DNA of 54,442 nucleotides from a virus. The stretch lies in the IMG/VR virus record IMGVR_UViG_3300013005_000022, positions 1 to 54,442 of that record; one strand, given 5' to 3'. Each line of letters opens with the position of its first letter. Position 1 is the first letter of the stretch. A program made the position numbers and the translations under genes. This document shows, piece after piece, positions 6,669-52,257 of the stretch. The notes under the pieces are model-generated. The model was not told the DNA's origin. It searched no databases and was given only the letters and a program-made list of their open reading frames with translations.

Positions 6669-6971
6669 ATGGAAATACCTAATTTTGAAAATTTTATCAA
6701 CGAAGGAAAAGTTACCATCAATAAAATGAATTTCACCATACATGTATTCAACGATACTAAAGGGTTATCTGTTCAATTTATTCCGGATAGTAAAACTCTA
6801 GATAAATTTTCAAAAAATGAAATGGTTGAATCTATTAAAACAAAACTAACCTCAGCAATGCCTAAATTTGCGGATTCTCTATATTTTGCAATAGATAATT
6901 CAGCTGCTGGTTTAAGTTTCCGTGTTGATACATTTGAATTAAGTGAAATAATTACAAAAGCTATTAAATAA
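6669..6971 (+). CDS. Small protein with capsid-targeting-type N-terminus
   Basis: 100 residues of unknown function. The N-terminus is MEIPNFENFINEGKV. The NFENFINE stretch matches the aromatic-x-x-F-hydrophobic-x-E pattern of T4 internal-protein capsid-targeting sequences, and INE fits the gp21 (L/I)xE cleavage site. The remainder is a small alpha/beta protein with no motif I recognise. It is preceded by a late-promoter-like box and its stop shares a base with the next ATG. I infer that it is packaged in the head; the sequence does not prove this. Confidence 0.6.
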   Translation: MEIPNFENFINEGKVTINKMNFTIHVFNDTKGLSVQFIPDSKTLDKFSKNEMVESIKTKLTSAMPKFADSLYFAIDNSAAGLSFRVDTFELSEIITKAIK

Positions 6972-18164: not shown

Positions 18165-18521
18165 ATGTCACAAGATCTAAACGAAGGGACACATCAAATA
18201 AAAAGAAAATACGGAGAATACACTGCTATTAACGTATATGAAAGAGGTCCTATCCGCAACAAAATCATTGAGTTTGTAAAAAACAAACACGTTACTGAAT
18301 CTGAGCTAAAAGAATTCGTTAAGAAATTAGCCGAAGAAAGAGGTGCTGATTTTGATTCTAATAAATGGTTCAAAAGAAACGAAAGATACTTTGAGGCTTA
18401 TCAAAATAGAGGTCAACAAGTTTATACTCTTTCTAAATTCGGTCAACGAGTTTATGAGTATATTGTTAAAAAAGCCGCACAAAAACAAATCAATGAATCA
18501 ATTGGTCTTTTTAAATTCTAA
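18165..18521 (+). CDS. Small basic protein, possible winged-helix
   Basis: 118 residues. The pattern (RGPIRNKIIEFVKNKHVTES, LKEFVKKLAEERG, FDSNKWFKRNERYF, VYTLSKFGQRVYEYI) suggests helix-turn-helix plus wing, and similar small proteins are found in T4-like phages. It begins MSQDLNEG and ends INESIGLFKF, both containing the xNE form of the cleavage site, but lacks the aromatic part of the tag. DNA binding in the head or cytoplasm is possible; neither is shown. Confidence 0.45.
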   Translation: MSQDLNEGTHQIKRKYGEYTAINVYERGPIRNKIIEFVKNKHVTESELKEFVKKLAEERGADFDSNKWFKRNERYFEAYQNRGQQVYTLSKFGQRVYEYIVKKAAQKQINESIGLFKF

Positions 18522-18538
18522 ACAAAACAAACATAAAT

Positions 18539-19561
18539 ATGAAATTACTTAACTTTAATGAGTTTGTTACTCATTTAAATGAATCACAAGAACTTCTATT
18601 AGAAGCTTTCAATTCTAGTATCTTACAAAGCGTTGTAACCAAACAACGTGAAGGAGGAATTGATAAGAAATTCTTCGATGCTCTCTCTAAAATAGGAGTG
18701 GCTGCCTCTGAGGTAACTAATTTAGATATTACTACTCTTGCTCCAGCCGATGCAGCTAAATATGCTGCCGCAAACCCAAACCAAATTCTAATTTATTATT
18801 CAACAACAGAAAAACCAAATCCTTACGTATCACCAGACGGTAAATACTATTATGGAACTATTAAAGCTGATGTTCCTTTGGCAGTTGTTAAAGGTAAATT
18901 GTTCATGGGGTTGGCTTATGATCGTTGGGCTTCTAAAGGTGGAAAAGCCGAATATAAGATAGTTGCTGGTACTGATGCTGGTACATCATTAGGTCTTGGA
19001 AATAAAGATTCTCGCGGATATGGTTCTAGTGGAATTAATACACTTAAGAAAATGGCCGATGTTTCAGATGTAGTTTATGCTATTAATCCGGATACCGTTC
19101 CATCTTCTAAAGCTCTAAAAGCAGAAAGATCAGAATCTAGAGCTGGTGCAATCGCATACAAAACAGATAAAGAATTCAAAGCGGAAAATCAATCTCGATA
19201 TGAAGCTATTCTAAGAGATCGTGCTTCTAATGAAGATATTGATAAAATGGTTGGTGATGCTATTGATACTCTTACTCAACAAATTAAAGATGCAATCGCT
19301 AAAGGTGCTAAAACTTCATACGGAGATGTTCTTATTGGTTTAAATCCTAAAGGAAGAGAAGTTAAGATGTCCGATGCCGGTCACTTAATGAGTACTATCC
19401 TAAGAGATTATGGAACATATGCATCTGCTAAAAATGACGAAATTGAATCAGAAAAACGTCACGGTGAAACTGATAGATACTATCGTAATCGTTCAGCAGA
19501 AGCGGCAAAAGCTATTAAAGACGGTCTTAATAAAATTAAGAACTTAAATTACGCTTGGTAA
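18539..19561 (+). CDS. Tagged internal-type protein, 340 residues
   Basis: Begins MKLLNFNEFVTHLNE, matching the capsid-targeting pattern with LNE. The body is Ala/Lys-rich and looks globular: DVPLAVVKGKLFMGLAYDRW, GTDAGTSLGLGNKDSRGYG, MSDAGHLMSTILRDYGTYA. I recognise no enzyme motif. At this size it is one of the larger members of the tagged set, so a carried enzyme or effector, as with T4 Alt, is worth testing. It is followed after one base by the next gene. Confidence 0.55.
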   Translation: MKLLNFNEFVTHLNESQELLLEAFNSSILQSVVTKQREGGIDKKFFDALSKIGVAASEVTNLDITTLAPADAAKYAAANPNQILIYYSTTEKPNPYVSPDGKYYYGTIKADVPLAVVKGKLFMGLAYDRWASKGGKAEYKIVAGTDAGTSLGLGNKDSRGYGSSGINTLKKMADVSDVVYAINPDTVPSSKALKAERSESRAGAIAYKTDKEFKAENQSRYEAILRDRASNEDIDKMVGDAIDTLTQQIKDAIAKGAKTSYGDVLIGLNPKGREVKMSDAGHLMSTILRDYGTYASAKNDEIESEKRHGETDRYYRNRSAEAAKAIKDGLNKIKNLNYAW

Positions 19562-19562
19562 T

Positions 19563-20219
19563 ATGCCATCAACCTCTATTGCACAACAAAGACTTATGGG
19601 TCAGGCTTACGCTCTCAAAACAGGAGAGCTTAAGTCTTCCGACTTAGATCCTAAATATCGTAAACAAATCGAAGATCTAGCCGCATCAATGTCCGAAAAA
19701 GACCTTAAAGATTTTGCTGAAACTTCACATAAAGGTTTACCACAAAAAGTAAAAGAAAATTATAAAATGAATAGACACGTTCCTACATTTGAATCATTTA
19801 TTAATGAATCAATTGATCGATTAGAACTTGACGAAGCCATTAAAATTAAATCAGGAACTGGACCATTCTATAAATACACCAGAGATCATAAATTAATCGA
19901 AAAGATTTTTAATGAGGCATTCAACGGTCAAGAAGATAAATTGCATAGTGCAAAATTCTTTAATACTGGTGCACCATGTATCAGATTTGAATTAAAAGAT
20001 AGAAGTGACTGGATGTTAATTTACTATCCAGGTCAAACTTATTTAGAAGATCATGGTTTAGGCAGTATTTCATTATATCCATACGGTCCACAAGAAAAAC
20101 GTTACGAAATTTTCTCGGTTGGTGTAAAAGGAAACCGAAAATTTGGTGATACCAAAATGACACCAGCTGAACTAAGAGATGCTACAAACGAACTTAAAGA
20201 TTGGGCATCTAAACAATAA
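19563..20219 (+). CDS. DUF3008-like domain joined to a tagged protein
   Basis: 218 residues in two parts. Residues 1-60 (MPSTSIAQQRLMGQAYALKT, then KDLKDFAETSHKGLP) match the small DUF3008-type phage/bacterial protein, which usually stands alone. Residue 69 is a Met (ATG 19767) that begins MNRHVPTFESFINE, a capsid-targeting tag in the middle of the frame, followed by a 135-residue domain (FYKYTRDHKLIEKIFNEAFN, ...DWMLIYYPGQTYLEDHG). Either two genes have fused in frame, or an internal start makes the tagged protein. Both may happen. Function unknown. Confidence 0.55.
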   Translation: MPSTSIAQQRLMGQAYALKTGELKSSDLDPKYRKQIEDLAASMSEKDLKDFAETSHKGLPQKVKENYKMNRHVPTFESFINESIDRLELDEAIKIKSGTGPFYKYTRDHKLIEKIFNEAFNGQEDKLHSAKFFNTGAPCIRFELKDRSDWMLIYYPGQTYLEDHGLGSISLYPYGPQEKRYEIFSVGVKGNRKFGDTKMTPAELRDATNELKDWASKQ

Positions 20220-20540: not shown

Positions 20541-20777
20541 ATGAAACAAGTAAAAGAAAATACTGCTGCTGCGACACCTGCTTCTGTAAATGGAATGGGT
20601 GCTCCAGCATTGCCAGGAAATCCAGGAACTCAATCAGGTTTTGTTACACAAAAGACAGGATCTGGTGATATCCCTTATTCGTTGGTTAAAGGCCAACCGA
20701 AGAAAAAGAAGAAATCTTCGTTCAAGAAATTTAATGACTTCATTAAAGGAAGCGAAGAAGTTAGAACTGCCTTTTAA
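20541..20777 (+). CDS. Small protein carrying a copy of the capsid protein N-arm motif
   Basis: 78 residues. Residues 16-48 (VNGMGAPALPGNPGTQ, then TQKTGSGD) repeat the segment of the major capsid protein at its residues 53-85 (VNGMGATRFPGNPGTQ, then TQTTGSGD); I count 22 identities in 33 positions by eye. A PKKKKKSSFKKFNDFIKGSE tail follows, basic with a tag-like FNDFI. It may dock in the capsid lattice or bind the same partner as the capsid protein arm. Its stop-start spacing of two bases ties it to the tagged genes before it. Confidence 0.55.
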   Translation: MKQVKENTAAATPASVNGMGAPALPGNPGTQSGFVTQKTGSGDIPYSLVKGQPKKKKKSSFKKFNDFIKGSEEVRTAF

Positions 20778-20813
20778 GTTTAGCAGTTCTCATTAAAAGT
20801 ACTAAAATGGATA

Positions 20814-21050
20814 GTGACAGTAGTAAAAAGACAATTCAGGAAATTATCGTGGAGGACGATCTGCCTGATCCTAGCAACCTTCTTCAACCCACTCGGATTC
20901 GACGCCTTATTTGCTTTGGTGACGAAGCTGACGGGTTCTTATCTAATAACAGATATCATCTTCTATTCCATTTCGGGATTCTTTTTTGGGTTATACTTTT
21001 TAACAAATCCAAATAGAAGACTTTCCAAGCACCCCAAATCCGACATATAA
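20814..21050 (+). CDS. Small two-helix membrane protein
   Basis: 78 residues, starting at GTG; no in-frame ATG lies between this point and the preceding stop. Two hydrophobic segments are visible, about residues 15-37 (TICLILATFFNPLGFDALFA) and 43-62 (LITDIIFYSISGFFFGLYFL), with a basic N-terminus. An overlapping frame from ATG 20807 encodes a less protein-like sequence. Role unknown; possibilities include lysis control or superinfection exclusion. Confidence 0.5.
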   Translation: MTVVKRQFRKLSWRTICLILATFFNPLGFDALFALVTKLTGSYLITDIIFYSISGFFFGLYFLTNPNRRLSKHPKSDI

Positions 21051-21073: not shown

Positions 21074-21565
21074 ATGAAATTTCTAAAAGTACGTAATGTG
21101 AAGTCTCCTATCCGAGGAACTTCGAAATCGGCTGGTATAGACTTCTTTGTTCCTGATGAATGGAATGATGGTCAACCATATTCTCTTGCCCCTGGAGGTA
21201 GAATCCTAATTCCGAGTGGAATCAAAGTAAATGTAATTGATGGACACGCTCTTATTGCTTTTAATAAGAGTGGAATTGCTACGAAGAAAGGTATCGTCGT
21301 TGGTGCTGAAGTGGTTGATGAAGATTACCAAGGCGAAATTCATTTACATATTATAAACACAAACCAACCATCAGAAACATTTGGTGATGCAGCATATTCA
21401 TCGGATCCTGGTTATGTTGATATTATCCCAGGAGAAAAACTAATGCAATTTATATTGCTACCAGTTAATTACTCAATGCCTGAGGAAGTTGAAACTATCG
21501 ATGATCTATTTGATGGTGTTACTGAAAGAGGTGAAGGCGGGTTTGGATCAACTGGATTAAAATAA
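21074..21565 (+). CDS. dut: dUTPase
   Basis: 163 residues, trimeric dUTP diphosphatase type. It hydrolyses dUTP to dUMP and PPi, keeping uracil out of DNA and feeding dTMP synthesis. All five motifs are visible: SAGIDFF (1), NKSGIA (2), GAEVVDEDYQGEIHLHIIN (3), GEKLMQFILLPV (4) and ERGEGGFGSTG (5). It lies close to the ribonucleotide reductase genes, a natural metabolic partner. Confidence 0.92.
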   Translation: MKFLKVRNVKSPIRGTSKSAGIDFFVPDEWNDGQPYSLAPGGRILIPSGIKVNVIDGHALIAFNKSGIATKKGIVVGAEVVDEDYQGEIHLHIINTNQPSETFGDAAYSSDPGYVDIIPGEKLMQFILLPVNYSMPEEVETIDDLFDGVTERGEGGFGSTGLK

Positions 21566-21801: not shown

Positions 21802-23202
21802 ATGATATTAGACATCGAAAACAACTTCAACGAATTAACCGTTTCTTATTTCAATAAGGAAGGAAATATTCGCTTAAAAAAGTACAAATTGACCGAAGAG
21901 CAATGCTCAAATTGGCGAATCTGTTCAGAATCCGATTCAAAAAAATCCGATCAATTTCGTAATTGGGATGGTAAAGCAGTAAAGAAAGTTAAAGATAAAC
22001 GTCTTCAAAAATTCTCCATCTATGAATTTATTAACAATTTAGAAGACGAAGATAAAGACGAAATCATTGGTTTTCATCTACCAAAAATACAATCTGTCGA
22101 TATTGAAACAGAAGTAATTGATTCTTTCCCTGATCCTAATGTTGCTCGAGAAAGAATTACCACTATTGCAATATCTACCGAAACAAATAAAACTATTGTA
22201 CTCGGTTGGAAACAAATCAGTAAAGAACAAGAGAAAGAAATATTCGATAAACATCGTGAATACCTAAAGAACTTCGGTGATTGGGACTTTAAATATATCT
22301 GTTTTGAAGATGAATTCAATATGATGTACACCTTTGTTAATAAGTTTATTCCAAACTTCTCGGTAATGATCGGTTGGAACTTTATGAACTTTGACTGGAA
22401 ATACATCTATAATCGTTGCAAAAAGCTCGGAATAGATATAACTGCCGCATCACCTAGTAGAAAAGTACAAGGTAACGATAACATCTTAATGCACGTAGGT
22501 ATTATTGACTATCTTGACATCTACCGAAGATGGGATAGAACAGTAGCTATTAAAGAAAGTAATTCACTTGATTTTGTGGCTAATGCTGTTTTAGGAACAA
22601 CTAAATTAAAGTATAACGGTACACTACAAGAACTATACGATAATGATTATGACAAATATATTTTGTATAATGCCGTCGATGCTGCTTTGGTGTCTTTAAT
22701 ACACAGAAAATTAAAAACTCTTAATATGGTATTCTCCATTGGATGTATTTGTAGTATTCCCATCTATCGAGCTTCTTCGGCGGTGAATGTTACTGAAGCG
22801 CTTCTTTGGAAAGGTTATTATAAAAGAAATCAAGTAATTGCCGATGATAGAACGGAAAAGGTTAAAGGTTCTTACGAAGGTGCTTATGTTAAAGAACCTG
22901 AACCTGGAATGTTTAAAGCAGCAACCTGTTTCGATTATGCTTCTCTATATCCTTCAATTATGCGTCAATATAATGTTTCACCAGAATCATTCTTACGAAA
23001 AGAACAAAATCAACAAAATCTAGAAAAATATCGTCAAGATCCCAATTTCGTCGTATCAGTCACTGGTGCAATATATGATAACTCTAAGGTATCTGTGTTA
23101 AAAGAAATTCTAACCGACCTTTATACAGAACGTAAAACGAATAAGAATCGTGGTCTCGATATTGAAAGATCTCTAATTAAAATAACAAAGAAAAATGCCT
23201 AA
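21802..23202 (+). CDS. 43: DNA polymerase family B, N-terminal piece (exonuclease and motif A)
   Basis: 466 residues, the first half of a T4 gp43-type replicative polymerase. The 3'-5' proofreading exonuclease shows VDIETE (D100, E102), NFMNFDWKYI and YNAVDAAL. The palm begins with motif A, FDYASLYPSIMRQ (D378). The frame stops within the fingers, before motif B. The rest of the enzyme is encoded about 4 kb downstream (27261-28469). Together the pieces give 868 residues, close to T4 gp43 (898), so little or nothing has been lost. The stop overlaps the nrdB start by eight bases. The two proteins probably assemble into one enzyme. Confidence 0.88.
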   Translation: MILDIENNFNELTVSYFNKEGNIRLKKYKLTEEQCSNWRICSESDSKKSDQFRNWDGKAVKKVKDKRLQKFSIYEFINNLEDEDKDEIIGFHLPKIQSVDIETEVIDSFPDPNVARERITTIAISTETNKTIVLGWKQISKEQEKEIFDKHREYLKNFGDWDFKYICFEDEFNMMYTFVNKFIPNFSVMIGWNFMNFDWKYIYNRCKKLGIDITAASPSRKVQGNDNILMHVGIIDYLDIYRRWDRTVAIKESNSLDFVANAVLGTTKLKYNGTLQELYDNDYDKYILYNAVDAALVSLIHRKLKTLNMVFSIGCICSIPIYRASSAVNVTEALLWKGYYKRNQVIADDRTEKVKGSYEGAYVKEPEPGMFKAATCFDYASLYPSIMRQYNVSPESFLRKEQNQQNLEKYRQDPNFVVSVTGAIYDNSKVSVLKEILTDLYTERKTNKNRGLDIERSLIKITKKNA

Positions 23203-27091: not shown

Positions 27092-27268
27092 ATGTACAAC
27101 TTATACAGCAAATACATTCATTACAACGAATACACACAAAAATGGTACGTATTCGAGCGTTCAGAAGCTACTCATTATCTAAATGATTCTGCTAAGCTTA
27201 AAACATTAAAAGAATATAAATCAATCGAGGATCTATTAAAGGACCATAAAAAAGAAACAAATGATTAA
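27092..27268 (+). CDS. Small protein before the polymerase C-terminal piece, 58 residues
   Basis: ATG 27092 opens a frame encoding MYNLYSKYIHYNEYTQKWYV and ending LLKDHKKETND, with stop 27266-27268. It overlaps the next start by eight bases, the same kind of overlap as between the polymerase N-terminal piece and nrdB. Tyr-rich and helical; function unknown. Confidence 0.5.
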   Translation: MYNLYSKYIHYNEYTQKWYVFERSEATHYLNDSAKLKTLKEYKSIEDLLKDHKKETND

Positions 27269-28469
27269 TTTCAATCCAGAAAAAATTGCAATAGAAGATA
27301 TCCCAGCATTACTCGAATCGCTAACAGGTCAAGATCGAGAAGATGCTATTACCGCCCTTAAAGCCGAACAACTTCGATGCAGTACTCAGGAACAAGGAAT
27401 TAAGCTAATCATTAACTCAATTTACGGAGCCTTCGCGAATGAGTATTTTCACTTCTACAATATTTCAGTTGCAGAAACGGTAACTCTTCAAGGACAAGAT
27501 GCTATCAAATTTACTGAACGTATGGTTGATAAGTATTTCAAAGAATTCTTTCATCGCGATAAACCTTTACTCGAAGCATTATGTGTTGTTGAAGGTCAAG
27601 AAGTTCCTAGAATTAAAGGAAACGTTTGGAAATATACAGATACCGATTCAGGTTATCTAATATTTGAAGAATGTATGGAAGCGGTTCAATGGAAAGGAAC
27701 CGTAAAAGATTTTGTACTCACTCTTAATTCTTTTAGGTTATCTAATTACATTAAGAAAGTTCTTAATGATTATGCCGAAACATTCCATACCGAAAATTAT
27801 CTAGATTTCGAATTAGAAACTATTGCCGAAAATGCCATTTGGGTTGCTAAAAAGAAATACATCCAAAATATCATTTGGAAAGATGGTAAAGATTACGACA
27901 ATCTTTCATATATCAAAACAACTGGTCTAGAAATTATCCAATCTTCTACACCAGTATTTTGTCGAGGTAAACTTATCGATGCCGTAAAATACATGTTCGC
28001 AAAAGGTAAAATTACCGAAAAAGATATTGGCGATTTAGTTAAGCTAATCAAAGAAATCAAACGAGAATTTAAACTTTCGAATATCGAAAAAATCTCAATG
28101 GGTCGTTCGGTTTCAGATTATCAAAAATTTGTAATCAATGATAATGATAAACTAGAACTTCAAAAAGGTTGTCCTATTCACGTTCGAGCATCTGCATATT
28201 ACAATTATCTACTTAATCAAAATCCAAAACTTAAAGGTAAATATGAAATGATTCGATCTGGTGATAAACTTAAATGGTATCATTCAGACGATACATTTTG
28301 TGATGTATTCGCTTATAAAGCAGGAATGCATCCCATTGAATTTGCACCTAAGATGAATATTGAACGTCAATTTCAAGCTTCAATTTTGGATCCACTTAAT
28401 CGAATTATAACACCAACTGGTATTCCGGCTTTGAATCCATCATTGGCATATACAGTAAGCCTTTTCTAA
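27261..28469 (+). CDS. 43: DNA polymerase family B, C-terminal piece (motifs B and C, thumb)
   Basis: 402 residues, the second half of the gp43-type polymerase. Motif B is KLIINSIYGAFAN (K48), and motif C YTDTDSGY (D127, D129) supplies the second metal ligand that complements D378 of the N-terminal piece. The palm continues with KKKYIQNIIW, then thumb sequence. The C-terminus NPSLAYTVSLF may be the clamp-binding tail, as the extreme C-terminus is in T4. The first 45 residues (INFNPEKIAIEDIPALLESL...) form the returning finger helix. No intein motifs are visible at either broken end, so the protein pieces are likely to associate without splicing. Confidence 0.88.
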   Translation: MINFNPEKIAIEDIPALLESLTGQDREDAITALKAEQLRCSTQEQGIKLIINSIYGAFANEYFHFYNISVAETVTLQGQDAIKFTERMVDKYFKEFFHRDKPLLEALCVVEGQEVPRIKGNVWKYTDTDSGYLIFEECMEAVQWKGTVKDFVLTLNSFRLSNYIKKVLNDYAETFHTENYLDFELETIAENAIWVAKKKYIQNIIWKDGKDYDNLSYIKTTGLEIIQSSTPVFCRGKLIDAVKYMFAKGKITEKDIGDLVKLIKEIKREFKLSNIEKISMGRSVSDYQKFVINDNDKLELQKGCPIHVRASAYYNYLLNQNPKLKGKYEMIRSGDKLKWYHSDDTFCDVFAYKAGMHPIEFAPKMNIERQFQASILDPLNRIITPTGIPALNPSLAYTVSLF

Positions 28470-41808: not shown

Positions 41809-43425
41809 ATGGCAGGATTCGTAAATAGAGAGGAGACTTACGCAGGTAAACCATCCGCATCTTCAAGAAATGTCGTTTCTAAAGCTCTTAAATCGTTATC
41901 ATCTTTTGGGATGATGTACGATGATATGGTGCTTAGAAACTCAAAAGCCATAGGTATCAATGAAGACCGATTCGGTTGGAGACTAGATCCAAGAAATGCA
42001 GCCGGTGGTGAATATGACGATTATGCTCTATTTGCTAACCTTTCAATGACAGATATTAATCTGCGTAAAAGTATTTCTATTTTTGACAAATCTTATATTA
42101 AAAAGAGAGAAGATCTTAGAAAATTCTCTATCCAAGATGAAATTGAAGAGATTCTCGATACCTTATGTGACGAATGTATCGTCTATGACGAAAAAAATTA
42201 CTTCTGTACACCATTAACTTTTGATGATCAGACACTAGAACCAGAAACTTTAGAGGCTGTTAAGTACGCTTTAGATACAAACTTTAAAAGAGTTTACCAG
42301 TACTTTGGCTTCAATAATGATATTTCTGCTTGGTCTTATTTTCGTAAATGGTTAATTGATGGATATCTCGCATTCGAGATTATCTATAATAAAGAACAAA
42401 CAAGAATTATCGGTTTCAAAGAACTTGATCCAGTATCTTTAGAACCAGGTCTTGATAAAGAAGGTAAGAAAATTTGGAAACAATTTAAAGCTCAACCTGG
42501 TAAAGAAAGAGTTATTTATGACTCACAGCTAATCTACCTTTCATATGCACATGCCAATACCGTAAGTCGTGTTTCTTATGTAGAACGTCTTATTCGTGCA
42601 TTCAACTTGCTTCGTATTATGGAGCACTCAAGAGTTATTTGGGCTACTGTTAATGCCTCATTCAAAACTAAATTCGTTATTCCTGTCGGTGGTAAATCTA
42701 AAACCAGAGCTCGTCAAAGCTTAGGTGTTCTGATGCAAAATTACCGAGAGAATATTGATTTTGATACTGAATCCGGAGAACTTAAAGTTAATGGTAAACC
42801 AATGATGCCTTTCAACAAAGAGTATTGGTTACCTTCTGGGGAAGCTGGTGAACCTACTATCGAGAATATTGGTAATGATGGTCCAGACTTATCAGATACA
42901 GATGCTCTTAAATATTTCCGTGAGAAACTAATTAAAGTATCTAAAATTCCACTTTCTCGTTTTGATATGGAATCTCCTCCATCATGGGAAATGAATGCTG
43001 AAGGTATGACAAGAGATGAAATTAAATTTGGTCGTTTTGTTAATCGTATGCGTTCAGTTTATCAAGAAATCTTGGTAAAACCTTTATGGATTCAAATGTG
43101 TTTAGACTTTCCAGAACTTAAAGATGATGATGCTTTTAAGGCACAAATTGGAATTAAGTTCAATAAATATAACATCTTTGAAGAGATGAAAGAGATTGAA
43201 ATCCTTCAAAAACGATTAGATTTTGTTACTTCAATGAAAGATGGTCTTGTAGAAACCGATGCTAATATGAACGAAATTAAATACTTTGCTTCGGAATTCT
43301 TAATTCAACGTTTCCTTGGTTTATCATCAGATGATATCCGAACCAACAAGAAAATGAAAGAATTAGAAGACGAAGAAAAACTAGCAGCCGCTAAGAAAGC
43401 CGCTGAAGCAACTGGTGGATTCTAA
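41809..43425 (+). CDS. 20: Portal protein (gp20)
   Basis: 538 residues (T4 gp20 is 524). It forms the twelve-subunit ring through which DNA enters and leaves the head. Diagnostic stretches are IDGYLAFEIIYNKEQTRIIG, FKELDPVSLEPG, LIYLSYAHANTVSRVSYVER, RVIWATVNASFKTKFVIPVG, EYWLPSGEAGEPTIENIG, LIKVSKIPLSRFD and EIKFGRFVNRMRSVYQEIL. Complete, with an Ala/Lys-rich C-terminus. It is followed by protease and capsid genes, in T4 order (20-21-22-23). Confidence 0.92.
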   Translation: MAGFVNREETYAGKPSASSRNVVSKALKSLSSFGMMYDDMVLRNSKAIGINEDRFGWRLDPRNAAGGEYDDYALFANLSMTDINLRKSISIFDKSYIKKREDLRKFSIQDEIEEILDTLCDECIVYDEKNYFCTPLTFDDQTLEPETLEAVKYALDTNFKRVYQYFGFNNDISAWSYFRKWLIDGYLAFEIIYNKEQTRIIGFKELDPVSLEPGLDKEGKKIWKQFKAQPGKERVIYDSQLIYLSYAHANTVSRVSYVERLIRAFNLLRIMEHSRVIWATVNASFKTKFVIPVGGKSKTRARQSLGVLMQNYRENIDFDTESGELKVNGKPMMPFNKEYWLPSGEAGEPTIENIGNDGPDLSDTDALKYFREKLIKVSKIPLSRFDMESPPSWEMNAEGMTRDEIKFGRFVNRMRSVYQEILVKPLWIQMCLDFPELKDDDAFKAQIGIKFNKYNIFEEMKEIEILQKRLDFVTSMKDGLVETDANMNEIKYFASEFLIQRFLGLSSDDIRTNKKMKELEDEEKLAAAKKAAEATGGF

Positions 43426-43466: not shown

Positions 43467-45371
43467 ATGAGTCAAAAATATTTGCTCGTACTGGAAAGAT
43501 CCTCTTCTGAATTAGACATCAAAACAGAAGGTGATAATTACGTTCTAGAAGGAATCTTTACAGAGATCGGCGTTAAAAACAAAAACAATCGTATTTACGA
43601 TGAAAAAGAAGTTCTTCCTCACATAGATGAACTTTTACAAAAGGTAAAAGGGAGTAAACTTTTAGGAGAATTAGATCATCCAAAATCTTTTGAAGTTTCT
43701 TTAAAAAATGCATCACATGTTATTGAAGCATTAGATTACGACAAAAACACCAAAAAAGTAATGGGTAGAATTCGTCTACTTAATACTAGTGCTGGTAAAG
43801 AAGCAAAAGCATTAGTTGATGCTGGTATTCCTTTACATATTTCTAGTCGTGCTGCTGGTGTAGTTGAGAATAATGGTCACGTTAAAATCAAAAAAATGTT
43901 TACTTACGATTTAGTTGCAGATCCTGGATTTGCTAATGCTGAATTATCAAGAGTAAATGAAGCATTTGGATTTGAGATGGATGATACATTAGGACTTTAT
44001 GAAATACCTTATGATTCTAAGTTAGCTGAGTCTTTCGAAGATCATGATAAAATTGATGAAAACAAACAAACTCAAAACATAAACAAATCTTCAAAAATGA
44101 ATACAACGGAGAACATTTCAGTTGAAGATTTTAACGAATATACAAAAATCGTTAAAAACGAAATTGAAAACCTTAAAAAACAAATCGCTGAGAGTAACAC
44201 TGATGCTGTAACAGAGAGTAATGAATCTTTGGTTAAGTATACCGAAACTATCGCAAAAAGAGTAAATCAAATCCAAGAAAACCTAGGTTCTTTAAAAGAG
44301 AATTTCGATCACTTGGTATCACACAATGATTACATCGTAGAAAACCTTGAAAAGGTTAAAGATTACGCTGAAATGGTTGGTGAGAAATCAAATCAAGGAA
44401 TTAACTATTCAGAAAAACTTGCTGAATCAGTTGACCACTTAATTGAGTACACTAAAATGGTTGCTGAAAAAGCAGATCATGGAATCTCTTATACTGAGAG
44501 AATCGCTGAATCTCTTGATTCTTCAATCGAATATCAAAACCACGTTACCAAAGAAGTTAATGAGCGTTTTGCTTACCAAACTTACATCAACGAACAAGTT
44601 GATAACATCATTTCCCATACAGATTATATCGTTGAAGGTTGTGATTCTATTATCAAGTACACTGAGTACTTAAAAGAGAACCAATCAAGTTTAACTGGTT
44701 ATATGGACTATGTAGTTAAAGGAATTAACGAAGGAAAAGTTATTACTAACGATCCTACAGACGATAATAAATCAGAAAACGGAAACGAAGATGATTCTAA
44801 AGTAAATGAAGGTGCTGATGCTACTGCTTCTACTGCTACAACTGCTGACGAATTTGAAAAAGAAATTAACTCTAAAGTTGATGCTATTTTAGAATCCGCT
44901 AAAGCTCAAAAAGATGAAGTTAAAAAATCTAAAATGCATTTCTTTAATTTCTTAGCAGAATCAAAAAGAAACGAATTTGAAGCGTTAAATCCTGAAATGC
45001 AAGAAAAAATCGTTGGTCTTTTCGAGTCTACTAAATGGTACGGTTCAACTGATGCTAATAACATTTGGGAATCTGCTTTCGCTAAACCAGTTGCTAAAAA
45101 TGATTGGTTAGCTAATATGCCAAATCGTTATGCTGAAGCTTGGAATTCATTAAACGAATCACAAAAGAATGCTATTAAAGCTCAAGCTTCGGTAAGAGTT
45201 CTTGATACACAATATCAAATCGATTCTTTCTGGTCATCTAGAGATTTAAGAGTTACTAAAGTAGAATCTACTACTCCTGTTGCTCCAATCAACGAATCAT
45301 CTAAGTACGAAACTCCAACTGAATACATGGATACTGTAGCTGCTGAATTAAAAAGAAGATTCAAAAGATAA
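43467..45371 (+). CDS. 21: Prohead protease fused to a scaffold-like domain (gp21-gp22 fusion)
   Basis: 634 residues, three times T4 gp21 (212). Residues 1-195 are the protease: EGIFTEIGVKNKNNRIYDEK, GELDHP with catalytic H71, and HISSRAAG with Ser126/127. It should cut head proteins at (L/I)xE sites. From residue 200 a Gln/Asn/Lys-rich joint leads to Met211 (ATG 44097), then a coiled coil with twelve 14-residue repeats (255-422), an acidic linker and a helical end (TEYMDTVAAELKRRFKR). The second part sits where T4 has scaffold gp22. An internal start at 44097, in an A-rich context like true starts here, could make free scaffold, as lambda C/Nu3 does. Confidence 0.82.
   Translation: MSQKYLLVLERSSSELDIKTEGDNYVLEGIFTEIGVKNKNNRIYDEKEVLPHIDELLQKVKGSKLLGELDHPKSFEVSLKNASHVIEALDYDKNTKKVMGRIRLLNTSAGKEAKALVDAGIPLHISSRAAGVVENNGHVKIKKMFTYDLVADPGFANAELSRVNEAFGFEMDDTLGLYEIPYDSKLAESFEDHDKIDENKQTQNINKSSKMNTTENISVEDFNEYTKIVKNEIENLKKQIAESNTDAVTESNESLVKYTETIAKRVNQIQENLGSLKENFDHLVSHNDYIVENLEKVKDYAEMVGEKSNQGINYSEKLAESVDHLIEYTKMVAEKADHGISYTERIAESLDSSIEYQNHVTKEVNERFAYQTYINEQVDNIISHTDYIVEGCDSIIKYTEYLKENQSSLTGYMDYVVKGINEGKVITNDPTDDNKSENGNEDDSKVNEGADATASTATTADEFEKEINSKVDAILESAKAQKDEVKKSKMHFFNFLAESKRNEFEALNPEMQEKIVGLFESTKWYGSTDANNIWESAFAKPVAKNDWLANMPNRYAEAWNSLNESQKNAIKAQASVRVLDTQYQIDSFWSSRDLRVTKVESTTPVAPINESSKYETPTEYMDTVAAELKRRFKR
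44229..44732 (+). repeat. Twelve tandem 14-residue (42-nt) repeats in the scaffold domain
   Basis: Residues 255-422 divide without gaps into twelve units of 14, consensus x-I-x-Y-T-x-x-(I/V)-A-E-x-x-(D/N)-x. Examples: LIEYTKMVAEKADH, GISYTERIAESLDS, IISHTDYIVEGCDS. The hydrophobic spacing suits a regular coiled-coil rod. DNA repeats have diverged, so the pattern is held by selection at protein level. Confidence 0.8.
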
Positions 45372-45479: not shown

Positions 45480-47099
45480 ATGTACTTAATTAACGAAAGT
45501 GAAATTTTTTCAAAATGGGCTCCAATTATCGAGTCTAATACTGGAATCACTGAGCGTTCTAGAGTTGAGTGGATGTCAAAATATTGCCATAACCACGAAT
45601 TATATGAGAACAACTCATATGCTCAACTAGGCGCTGTGAACGGTATGGGTGCTACTCGTTTCCCTGGAAACCCTGGTACTCAAGATGCTTTTGACACTCA
45701 AACTACAGGTTCTGGTGATAAAGCTCACACATTGCTACCTCTTGCTATGCAAGTTGCAGCTCAAACAATCGGATTGGACTTAGTTCCAGTTGTGCCAATG
45801 CCTGGTCCAATGGGTGTTTTAACTTATTTGGATTTCGTATATGCTGGTGGTAAAACTGCTGGTACTGGTGCTGATGTTCCTTTGATGGTTAAATTGAACT
45901 ACGGTTCTAACACAATCCCAGGATTCACAGTAGGTGGTTCAGGTGCTTCAGGTGGTGCTACTTTCTACATGGTAGGTTCTTCTCGTCTTGACGGTATGCC
46001 AATCTTACGTGTTGCTGGTACTCTAACAGGTTCTAACACAATCGTAGATTGCTTAACTAACATCACAATCGGTGGAGCTTCTGCTGGTACTACTTCTAAC
46101 TATTCAGTTGAATTAGTTAAAGCTCTAGAAGATCACATCACTGGTTTCTCTGGTCAAGCTCTTGCTAACAACGACTACACTGGATTCGATATTAACGATC
46201 CATATAGCCGTAACGAAGGTGAAAGTACTGCAGATAACGTAATGAACTTAAGTCTATTCAACAAATCAGTTGAAGCTAAGACTTTCCAAGTTGCTGCTGC
46301 TGTTACTCGTGAGCAAGTTCAAGACTTGAAACAATTCGGTATCGATGCTGTATCTCAAGTAGAAGCAGTTCTTATCAACGAATTAACTCAATCAATCAAC
46401 AAGAACATTCTTGCTCGTATCTTCGCTCTAGGAGAAAGAAACCACGAATACGTAATCCGTACTCAAGGTCAAAACTTCTTCTTGAACTTAGGTGCTACTG
46501 CTGCTCTAGTTTCTTCAACTAGCACTAACTCTCCTGCATCTAACTTCGGTGCTTACATTCAATCAACTACTTTACGTGGTGCTACTATGGCTGCGACTGA
46601 AAACGTTAACTCTGCTTCAGAAAACTTACATACTCGTCAACGTAAAATTATGTCTAAAGTATTAGCTATCGCTAACTTAATCGCTATTAGAGGTCGTCGT
46701 GGACCAGCTACTTTCGTAGTTACTAACGGTCAAGTTTGTTCAGCTTTACAAGACGTTGCTGGATTCGTACCTGCTCCAATGGCTAACACAATTAACCAAA
46801 TGAGTGGTTCACTTTACCCAATCGGTACTTTAGCTGGTTTGGCAGTGTATAACGATCCAAACATGAACTGGTCAGATACTCGTATGTGTATCGGACGTAA
46901 AGGTGACGGTAACTCTCCAGGGTTAGTGTTCATGCCTTACTTAATGGCTGAAAGTGTTCAAACTATCGCTGAAGGTACTATGGCTCCTAAAGTTGCGGTT
47001 AAATCTCGTTACGCTTTAGTTGAAGCTGGTTTCCACCCAGAAACTATGTACTTAACTTCAGGTGTATCGTTGAACAACGCATTCGGTTCACTTGCTTAA
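45480..47099 (+). CDS. 23: Major capsid protein (gp23)
   Basis: 539 residues (T4 gp23 is 521). Builds the head lattice. The N-terminus (MYLINESEIFSKWAPIIESN) is a helical propeptide; a gp21-type site LYE lies at residues 41-43, after which the mature arm would begin NNSYAQLGAVNGMGATRFPG. The body shows AAQTIGLDLVPVVPMPGPMG, FQVAAAVTREQVQDLKQFGI, EAVLINELTQSINKNILARI and the C-terminal VKSRYALVEAGFHPETMYLT, all as in gp23. The gene uses more C-ending, cleaner codons than its neighbours, fitting high expression, and ends in a strong terminator. Confidence 0.93.
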   Translation: MYLINESEIFSKWAPIIESNTGITERSRVEWMSKYCHNHELYENNSYAQLGAVNGMGATRFPGNPGTQDAFDTQTTGSGDKAHTLLPLAMQVAAQTIGLDLVPVVPMPGPMGVLTYLDFVYAGGKTAGTGADVPLMVKLNYGSNTIPGFTVGGSGASGGATFYMVGSSRLDGMPILRVAGTLTGSNTIVDCLTNITIGGASAGTTSNYSVELVKALEDHITGFSGQALANNDYTGFDINDPYSRNEGESTADNVMNLSLFNKSVEAKTFQVAAAVTREQVQDLKQFGIDAVSQVEAVLINELTQSINKNILARIFALGERNHEYVIRTQGQNFFLNLGATAALVSSTSTNSPASNFGAYIQSTTLRGATMAATENVNSASENLHTRQRKIMSKVLAIANLIAIRGRRGPATFVVTNGQVCSALQDVAGFVPAPMANTINQMSGSLYPIGTLAGLAVYNDPNMNWSDTRMCIGRKGDGNSPGLVFMPYLMAESVQTIAEGTMAPKVAVKSRYALVEAGFHPETMYLTSGVSLNNAFGSLA

Positions 47100-50277: not shown

Positions 50278-50765
50278 TGGAAATCATTAGACAAAATCTA
50301 GGAAAACGTCCAACCAAGTTCGGTATAGTTCTAGATCGACTTAAACCTAGATATCAAAGAATATTAAAGAAGAATCCTATCATTCGTAATTACTCAACGG
50401 ATGATAGGATCCTTAAATGTATCTTCAAAATAGAAGATAGATTAATACAAGTATCTCATCTCAAAAGAGTTTTTATTGAACCTAAAAGCAGAGAAATATC
50501 CACTTTTAAAATCATCAGAGAATCATATCATCAATTCGATTGGAATTGTACTTTTTGCAATAAACCAATCAAATCTCGAATAGATAATTATGAACCAGGA
50601 AACTTTACTTGCACGAAATGCGAGAATACATATATTAAAGGAACTCGAAAAATTCCTAGACGAATAATCGAGGAATCTTTAAGATTCACAGAACATGTGA
50701 AAACTTTAATGAAGACTGATCAAAAGAAAATTATAAAATATATCAAGAAAAATGATGAATCTTAA
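50277..50765 (+). CDS. Zinc-ribbon protein, unknown function
   Basis: 162 residues. A basic first half (LGKRPTKFGIVLDRLKPRYQ) is followed by a zinc ribbon, CTFCNKPIKS and CTKCENTYI, with 20-odd residues between the pairs, then a basic helical end. Nucleic-acid binding is likely from charge and ribbon. It overlaps both neighbours at start and stop, so it is translated with the structural genes around it. Confidence 0.55.
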   Translation: MEIIRQNLGKRPTKFGIVLDRLKPRYQRILKKNPIIRNYSTDDRILKCIFKIEDRLIQVSHLKRVFIEPKSREISTFKIIRESYHQFDWNCTFCNKPIKSRIDNYEPGNFTCTKCENTYIKGTRKIPRRIIEESLRFTEHVKTLMKTDQKKIIKYIKKNDES

Positions 50766-52257
50766 GTACTTCAGTGATTTTGTTAATGAAGCAAAAACTA
50801 CTGACGCAAAAACTGTTAAAAATCCGAGAGTTAAACTAGTACTACTAACGAATGCTAGTAAAGAATCTCATACCGTTCCTTCGTTCGAAGCAGAATGTAA
50901 AAAAATGGGTGTTGAATTCATCGTTATTGATATCAGTACAGCAATGATTGCTGATGGTAAAGACGGTAACTTCTTCATCAGTGATAAAGAAAATCCAAAA
51001 GGCCTTAAGATCAATGCAGATAATACTGCAGTTTTAACTCGTCGTGGAGTTGTTAGAAATACTTATACAAAATCACTAGTTGAGAAGTTAGAAGATAATA
51101 ACTTCTTTGTTGTAAATACACTTGAAGCTATTATGGCTTGTGAGAACAAATATGTTACTACAAAAATCCTTAAAGAAGCTGGACTTCCAGTTCCTAAAAC
51201 TGCTATTGTTGATGGAGAAGACTCTATTGAAAGAGCGGTTAAAGATGTTGGTGGTAAATTCCCAGTAGTTTGTAAAATCCTTTCTGGATCTCAAGGAATT
51301 GGAGTTTCTATTGTAGATTCTCTTGCCTCTCTTAAATCTGTTTTACAGACCATATGGAAAGTTGATCCCTCTGTTGAAATCTTGATTCAAGAGAAGATCG
51401 AATCTGAATACGATTTAAGAATACACGTTTTGACGAGAAAATTCAACTCGCCAACACCAGAAGACACCGATTCGGTACTTCTTGGTTACATGAGAAGAAA
51501 TCGTGTTAAAAAAGACTTCCGTACTAATTACTCTTTAGGCGGAACCGTTGAAAAAACTAAAGTAACACCAGAACAAGAGAAAATAGCTATCGAATCAGCT
51601 AAGGCTGTTGGTTGTAATTGGTGTGGAGTTGATATTATCGTAGATAAGAAAACTGGTGCTAATTACGTTCTAGAAGTTAATGCTTCTCCAGGAACTACTG
51701 GTTTGAAAAAAGCTACTGGTGTTAACGTTGTTAAAGATATCGTTCAATTCTTAATGGATAAAACCAACTGGATTCGTTCTAGAAAACGTGTTGGTTTCCG
51801 TGAAGTAATTCAGATCCCTAATCTTGGTGATGTGGTTGCTAAATTTGATACTGGTAATGGATCTCTTTCTTGTACACTTACATACGATAAAATAGATGTT
51901 AATGAAAAAGAAAAACTAGTTAAATGGACTTTAGGTAAAAGAGATTTTGAATCTAAATTTGTCGGATTCACCGAAACCGAAGTTGGTGATACTGTAGAGA
52001 AACGTCCAGTTATTGAAATGGATATTCAATTTGCTGGTAAAGTATACAAGAAAGTTCCGGTTGCATTAGATGATCGTTCTACCAAAAGTACTAAATTCCT
52101 TGTGAATCGTAAATTCATGGAGAGAATTGGTTGTTCAGTAGATCCAATGAGAACTTTCGTGGTAACTTCATTTCCTGAAGATTATCATGGTGGAGAAGCT
52201 AAAAAGGATCCACATGCAGGAATTATCTTTGAATGGGATAAAAAGAAAACTAAATAA
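50752..52257 (+). CDS. Tagged ATP-grasp ligase fused to a RimB-like aspartic protease
   Basis: 501 residues in three parts. Residues 1-13, MMNLKYFSDFVNE, form a capsid-targeting tag with a VNE cleavage site. About 30-335 is a RimK-like ATP-grasp domain: CENKYVTTKILKEAGLPVPK, FPVVCKILSGSQGIGVSIVD, SEYDLRIHVL, YVLEVNASPGTTG (E308, N310 as metal ligands). It would join an amino acid to a carboxyl group using ATP. About 345-480 resembles the retropepsin-like ATP-dependent zinc protease/RimB domain: VAKFDTGNGSLSCTL with catalytic D366, KRPVIEMDIQFAGKVYKKVP and CSVDPMRTFVV. A ligase and a protease in one packaged protein suggests addition and removal of peptide tags. Confidence 0.78.
   Translation: MMNLKYFSDFVNEAKTTDAKTVKNPRVKLVLLTNASKESHTVPSFEAECKKMGVEFIVIDISTAMIADGKDGNFFISDKENPKGLKINADNTAVLTRRGVVRNTYTKSLVEKLEDNNFFVVNTLEAIMACENKYVTTKILKEAGLPVPKTAIVDGEDSIERAVKDVGGKFPVVCKILSGSQGIGVSIVDSLASLKSVLQTIWKVDPSVEILIQEKIESEYDLRIHVLTRKFNSPTPEDTDSVLLGYMRRNRVKKDFRTNYSLGGTVEKTKVTPEQEKIAIESAKAVGCNWCGVDIIVDKKTGANYVLEVNASPGTTGLKKATGVNVVKDIVQFLMDKTNWIRSRKRVGFREVIQIPNLGDVVAKFDTGNGSLSCTLTYDKIDVNEKEKLVKWTLGKRDFESKFVGFTETEVGDTVEKRPVIEMDIQFAGKVYKKVPVALDDRSTKSTKFLVNRKFMERIGCSVDPMRTFVVTSFPEDYHGGEAKKDPHAGIIFEWDKKKTK

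Follow-up and report, generated by a model that had tools for sequence, protein, structure and literature searches.

We analysed a window of 54,442 nucleotides (positions 1 to 54,442 of the IMG/VR virus record IMGVR_UViG_3300013005_000022), in which a small open reading frame encodes a protein, here called S, with a copy of the N-terminal arm of the major capsid protein (MCP) of the same phage. The genes and features to which we refer are as follows.

20541..20777, + strand: S gene, encoding the 78-aa arm-copy protein, ATG start
20541..20558, + strand: leader MKQVKE of S, ending in a predicted prohead-protease site, E6/N7
20559..20684, + strand: arm copy, in which S residues 7-48 correspond to MCP residues 44-85 of the mature arm
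20700..20714, + strand: lysine run K54-K58 (KKKKK) of S
20715..20774, + strand: C-terminal tail of S, SSFKKFNDFIKGSEEVRTAF, conserved and loosely resembling a targeting sequence
18165..18521, + strand: neighbouring gene; its homologue is fused with an arm copy in the ~540-aa protein of L041/L042 (by inspection)
18539..19561, + strand: neighbouring gene whose product has a targeting-like N-terminus and whose homologue makes up the C-terminal part of that ~540-aa L041/L042 protein (by inspection)
19563..20219, + strand: DUF3008 gene with an internal targeting-like stretch (PF11450, E=3.2e-11)
21074..21565, + strand: dUTPase (PF00692, E=1.1e-14)
41809..43425, + strand: portal protein, gp20 family (PF07230, E=3.2e-71)
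43467..45371, + strand: prohead protease (PF03420, E=7e-13; phrog_207, E=4.6e-43), the expected processing enzyme for the cut
45480..47099, + strand: MCP, gp23 family (PF07068, E=5.8e-35)
45606..45734, + strand: MCP Glu43 and arm residues 44-85, the template of the copy

The S gene is located in the replication region, with the dUTPase and a family B DNA polymerase downstream and no recognised primase directly adjacent. By inspection, close relatives and LR756500 likewise have a dUTPase-looking gene downstream of S. The polymerase is encoded in two genes (21802-23202 and 27261-28469, matching PF00136 positions 15-136 and 148-360), and ribonucleotide-reductase-like genes were seen by inspection between the two parts. 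Directly 3' of S are two overlapping frames, 20807-21016 and 20814-21050 (MDxD... and ...LATFFNPLGFDALFAL...), which are also open in L001, L004-L007, L009, L010, L027 and L304-L306 and possibly represent either dual coding or one genuine membrane protein.

The earlier note on this DNA had reported that S residues 16-48 share about 22 of 33 positions with MCP residues 53-85, and pairwise alignment confirmed an identity of 22/33. The copied stretch had also been placed just after the predicted MCP cleavage site; the alignment indeed runs without gaps back to a Glu in both proteins, and 25 of the 43 residues counted from that Glu are identical (S 6-48 vs. MCP 43-85). When the MCP arm (residues 41-88) was used as a tblastn query against the phage's own 160,448-base record, the MCP was followed by the S ORF (E=1.2e-12, 57% over 44 aa); the best match beyond these two had an E of 4.2, as had the best match in the reversed record. 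The S and MCP arms scored 121 against each other, while shuffled copies scored at most 50 in 2000 trials. A chance or low-complexity match is ruled out by these tblastn, shuffle and reversed-sequence results, and a motif common to unrelated virion proteins, which the earlier note had named as the result that would refute its claim, was not found: the own record has only the MCP and S. At the DNA level the stretch is identical at 69 of 99 positions, with the same codon used for 13 of the 22 common residues, which points to an old copy held at the protein level and makes a recent duplication or gene conversion unlikely. A gp24-like paralogue was also considered and rejected, as the MCP gives the single PF07068 match in the own record, though this record may be incomplete.

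By residue, S reads MKQVKE/N...VNGMGAPALPGNPGTQ...TGSGDIPYSLVKGQPKKKKKSSFKKFNDFIKGSEEVRTAF, where the slash marks the cut at E6/N7 that is predicted from the rule by which T4 gp21 cleaves after L/I-X-E (PMC9026906). The leader of the window S consists of MKQVKE, without an N-terminal targeting peptide of the internal-protein (IP) type. The basic stretch that follows the arm copy is present as the conserved KKKKK, and the 30 residues past the arm carry a net charge of +6, compared to 0 for their MCP counterpart. In close relatives the arm, the lysines and the tail are all kept, including the FKKFNDFIK that had been described as tag-like, but the C-terminal tail does not match the strict tag pattern. 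A C-terminal tag as a genome-wide class found no support (2 ORFs vs. 2.7 expected). By the strict pattern, T4-type targeting-like motifs near the N-terminus were found in 22 of the 231 ORFs of the record, compared to 2.5 in shuffles; examples are at 6669, 11173, 35531, 38276, 39626, 39950 and 50752, the last in a RimK-like ATP-grasp protein (50752-52257), an enzyme that one would hardly expect to be packaged. Neither PF07068, the HK97-type capsid domain, nor DUF3008 (PF11450) was matched in the 78-residue S, and its sole PHROG match was phrog_11367 (E=0.037). The match to MARCKS (PF02063, E=0.0057) is below the cut-off of that family and was taken as a match of composition.

In T4, 65 residues are cut off gp23, and the new N-terminus, the N-fist, contacts four subunits; the gp23 N-termini shift from inside to outside upon expansion (PMC9958956). 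At the T4 portal vertex, the N-fists point toward the portal (PMC7136217). Among the 44 MCPs compared, E43, M56, P62, P65, F71 and G77-D80 are invariant (44/44). A structural model of the MCP (mean pLDDT 63, pTM 0.49), which was used only for the lack of secondary structure in the arm, has none from residue 34 to a helix at 86-96, with pLDDT there mostly <50. The copied span is the unstructured segment that runs from the Glu up to this first MCP helix (86-96 in the low-confidence model) and ends there. Given that profile alignment to T4 gp23 covered only MCP residues 252-513, the equation of the segment with the N-fist rests on chain order, i.e., cleavage site, arm and first helix.

The S/MCP pair is also found in related phages. 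Scanning IMG/VR with the S protein yielded 10 loci, and scanning with the family profile yielded 21, which comprised the 10 contigs already found, 10 new carriers and L043, an MCP; the carriers in both scans total 20 contigs. No carrier was found in bacterial genomes with alignment A1. GSGD is shared by all members of alignments A1 and A2, and a Glu lies exactly 12 residues ahead of GMG in 12/20 S and 9/14 MCPs. The dN/dS ratios among nine sequences varied from 0.06 to 0.34 (36 pairs, 68 codons), and S is under purifying selection. What precedes the arm varies among the relatives and can be a short leader, a T4-type targeting peptide (L004, L007) or a DUF3008 domain (L005, PF11450 E=3e-10; L006, by alignment). 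In distant relatives the arm is found within larger proteins of up to ~540 residues; fused forms with large partners occur in L035, L038, L039, L041 and L042, and in the ~540-residue fusions the arm is surrounded by homologues of the genes at 18165-18521, 19563-20219 and 18539-19561. The fused forms of G013, G016 and G019 have a hydrophobic-X-E/A site after the arm-lysine-tag unit, at which a cut would free a piece that we estimate at 70-80 residues. Past the arm, 27 of 28 S carry a positive net charge (mean +4.75, vs. 0.1 for MCPs), and the sequence of that tail is unconserved across lineages.

A profile search for a second arm covered 42 records, i.e., 41 of the 80 MCP loci plus L043, many of them short fragments of <100 kb. 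A second arm place was found in 16 of the 42, and in 10 of the 11 that were at least 100 kb long, among them the near-identical G001-G003 and the seemingly near-identical G033 and G035. The copies in G025, G030 and G036 are about 10 residues short beside a full-length own MCP arm, and the copy in G033 is shorter still and followed by an acidic stretch, again with a full-length MCP arm in the same phage. Exact replacement of the arm is therefore not required.

Second copies were also found in more distant phages, for which either an arm profile or the MCP arm of the phage in question served as the query. They are present in LR756500 (E=1.2e-10), where a DUF3008-like part, the arm and lysines lie beside a dUTPase-like gene; in PTm1 (E=2.2e-4 with the profile, 6e-10 with its own arm), in ORF-299 between portal and protease; in LR756502 (E=0.011 with the profile; pair score 92, compared to at most 51 for shuffles); in LR756504 (E=6.8e-4); in Lak-B5 (E=1.1e-4); and in cyanophage Syn33 (E=7.5e-7, 67% over 24 residues). 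Searches with arms identified no second copy in PAU, pT24, Flavobacterium phage MaF61 and IMG/VR record G021, so that the copy is not indispensable in all phages. PTm1 ORF-299 (L084 982-1815; phrog_2859, E=1.3e-13) joins the arm copy to a domain of ParB-like appearance (by inspection); a similar gene of PAU, also located between portal and protease, has no arm. LR756500 also contains, at 246257-254192 (L052/L053, L054) and near polymerase and UvsX-like genes, two short genes that resemble separate MCP pieces: a 313-aa gene similar to MCP residues 266-320 and 412-473, and a 169-aa gene weakly similar to residues 6-45 (E=0.007).

In the T4 genome, the gp23 arm as query (E up to 10) matched one place besides gp23, namely gene 61.1 (NP_049649.1; E=1.7e-5, 46% over 37 residues), which adjoins the primase gene, gp61. 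T4 gp61.1 consists of a targeting peptide, MKTFKEFIKE, a copy of the gp23 N-fist and KKKK; its sequence MKTFKEFIKE/DMVAGDSGGNPENISIGTTSGAVVNKGPEQIPKKKKEESKEKEE aligns with FLTE/AEIGGDHGYNATNIAAGQTSGAVTQIGP of gp23. The gp61.1 profile, phrog_1823, matches T4 gp23 residues 59-101 (E=3.1e-9), and phrog_2086, a fused form, matches residues 42-101 (E=5.3e-7). Against the PDB, gp61.1 matched gp23 residues 58-94 (E=0.0067), and a chain of neither S nor gp61.1 was found there by sequence. gp61.1 was matched in 1440 phage records (E up to 10), although some of the matches are MCPs. Seven of the eight matches examined (KMI13, Berthold, Serratia 4S, avDM1, D6b, AS-yj and T6) were gp61.1-like genes, all located beside the primase gene or one gene away, and four of these seven had a domain of ~100 residues instead of the targeting peptide; the eighth, in Vibrio EniLVp02, was the MCP itself. 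In some records the homologues are annotated as "major capsid domain-containing protein," "major capsid protein" or "putative head morphogenesis protein." The earlier note had called a decoy or glue of this sort new; the gene kind is known, but no function is described for it: in the accessible text of the open-access literature searched, gp61.1 appears only in rows of gene tables in two papers. The same literature yielded no mention of S or gp61.1 in virion proteomics or structures, nothing on DUF3008 and nothing on such mimicry. Neither the phrog_1823 profile, which did not match S, nor direct comparison (scores of 22-26) revealed a recognisable common sequence between S and gp61.1, so that their common descent is without sequence support.

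In other lineages the copied sequence differs, yet it is again that of each phage's own arm, which argues against a common motif. We scored each S arm against each MCP arm, subtracted the row and column means and compared the true pairing with shuffled ones. The true pairing was reached by none of 200000 shuffles for 14 pairs and for 20 pairs, and by 2/200000 for 16 pairs of window-type S and DUF3008-type relatives; single pairs outscored all their shuffles in 20/20 and 9/9 cases. For seven deep lineages with mostly dissimilar arms (the window, LR756502, PTm1, LR756504, Lak-B5, T4 and Syn33), the true pairing ranked first of 5040. At close range the preference for the own MCP is weak (3343/200000 shuffles for 6 pairs and 5249/200000 for 9 pairs in the close clade), no such preference was found in the T4 group, and S of LR756504 scored 98 against the MCP of LR756502 but 69 against its own. 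The copy tracks the MCP over deep time, via co-evolution or repeated capture, and not residue by residue. It should be noted that common ancestry of copy and MCP within each lineage would give the same pairing signal.

The design of S (a preserved copy of the arm, a basic tail and agreement with the lineage's own MCP) is well supported as far as sequences can support it, and from it we infer the mechanism (head entry, cleavage, docking site and DNA contact). The reading that we favor, though only tentatively and at somewhat below an even chance, is that S is a head-internal protein of the gp61.1 type whose arm docks in trans and whose basic tail or cargo is held inside. S would enter the prohead by a signal that differs among phages and may be a targeting peptide at the N-terminus, a DUF3008 domain or the C-terminal tail; in T4, targeting peptides of 10 residues carry proteins into the core (PMC9026906). 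The prohead protease would then cut S after the Glu, at or near the position of the MCP cut, so that the newly freed N-terminus of S duplicates that of the mature MCP. During maturation this end may dock in place of an MCP arm, the most plausible places being the few without an arm, adjacent to the portal or flanking the vertices, and would anchor the basic tail, or in fused forms the cargo, on the inner shell face by the DNA. Against this reading speak the absence of an N-terminal targeting peptide from the window S, the deviation of its tail from the strict pattern and the shortened copies of some relatives. The two roles suggested in the earlier note, that S takes the place of the capsid arm or ties DNA to the inner capsid surface, would both fit this anatomy of the sequence. 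S and gp61.1 unite the T4 arm, cleavage and targeting signals, and MCP-like processing and use of an arm site are the simplest reading. In both this phage and T4 the gene sits among replication genes, so S may be an early product of low abundance, as would be better suited to a special vertex than to the whole shell.

Alternatively, S may be a regulator of assembly or of the protease, a soluble competitor that shows the MCP cleavage region and arm to protease, core or MCP, times cleavage or nucleation and need not stay in the head. The Glu and its flanking residues are preserved, and the position of S amid replication genes, away from the head cluster, and of the T4 copy beside the primase gene suggests synthesis before the late genes. 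However, about 40 residues are kept past the site, an excess for a protease with the L/I-X-E rule (PMC9026906), and the basic tail is left unexplained; we consider a regulator unlikely. Quite unlikely, in our view, is that the arm merely retains S and its fused partners until ejection, the basic tail or cargo then acting in the host. The fusions with large partners described above are consistent with this, as are the T4 internal proteins with targeting peptides, which are ejected and protect DNA (PMC3012670), and DarA-Hdf of P1, which lies on the inner capsid face and contacts DNA, DarA being cut (PMC12810830). Nevertheless, the window S and T4 gp61.1 have just a short tail past the arm, and the tails differ in sequence across lineages.

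It is improbable that S is an immune decoy that binds host sensors recognising the MCP and stops them from firing. A decoy would likewise need to track its own MCP, but the targeting peptides and protease site point to the prohead, and the gp23 peptide that activates the host system Lit presumably lies just downstream of the copied part. Sensing of gp23 or of one of its peptides is known for the host systems CmdTAC (PMC11618068) and Lit (mentioned in PMC11312562), but CmdTAC fires in T4 although T4 has gp61.1. That S is a decayed duplicate or a functionless Gly/Pro-rich motif is hardly credible and already contradicted, for although the segment is short and G/P/T/S-rich, its low dN/dS over all 36 pairs, its retention in 10/11 large records and the defeat of all shuffles in the 20/20 and 9/9 pairs stand against a relic or chance likeness.

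The favored reading, a head-internal protein docked by its arm in trans, can be extended to a general and overlooked part of T4-like heads, which would plug the few arm sites that stay empty, be it at the portal vertex or at pentons, and couple expansion to DNA or internal proteins with an own-arm copy on a basic tether, kept or re-acquired in each deep lineage. We regard this extension as doubtful, and hold the same doubt about its range, which would reach from coliphages and cyanophages to the phages of Bacteroidota and Lak megaphages. The occurrence of a small arm-copy protein in many T4-related large phages, nearly always with a lysine-rich tail, suggests an overlooked part of phage-head building or filling, and one design recurs in distant phages whose arm sequences are unrelated. 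T4 has the best-studied phage head, yet its gene 61.1 is without a function in the sources searched, and the combination of targeting peptide, gp23 N-fist copy and lysines gives this gene a testable role. It bears on how arm sites at the portal and vertices are filled, how internal proteins are retained and how jumbo phages pack cargo.

Among known systems, the segment copied is that of the T4 gp23 N-fist/N-arm (PDB 5VF3, 7VS5, 8T1X, 8GMO and others), but S would provide this arm in trans and without a capsid fold. To our knowledge, no gp23-arm copy is present in T4 IPI-IPIII and Alt. In other respects these proteins resemble the proposed S, with a targeting peptide of ~10 residues, a cut after Glu and a location inside the head (PMC9026906, PMC3012670). 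The DarA-Hdf proteins of P1 are also internal proteins of the inner face that contact DNA, with DarA cleaved by the prohead protease close to where the MCP is cut, but they are large folded proteins, and the accessible text of that report describes no arm copy (PMC12810830). T4 gp61.1, with phrog_1823 and phrog_2086, is like S in that it is short, is encoded among replication genes and copies its own mature gp23 N-terminus right after a Glu before continuing into a lysine-rich tail. Unlike S, gp61.1 has an N-terminal targeting peptide and a primase gene as its neighbour, where the window S has a small membrane-like protein and the dUTPase, and outside the design their sequence similarity is unrecognisable. 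Judged by this design in sequence, S is the Bacteroidota-type counterpart of T4 gp61.1, and the feature is wider and older than the window alone shows.
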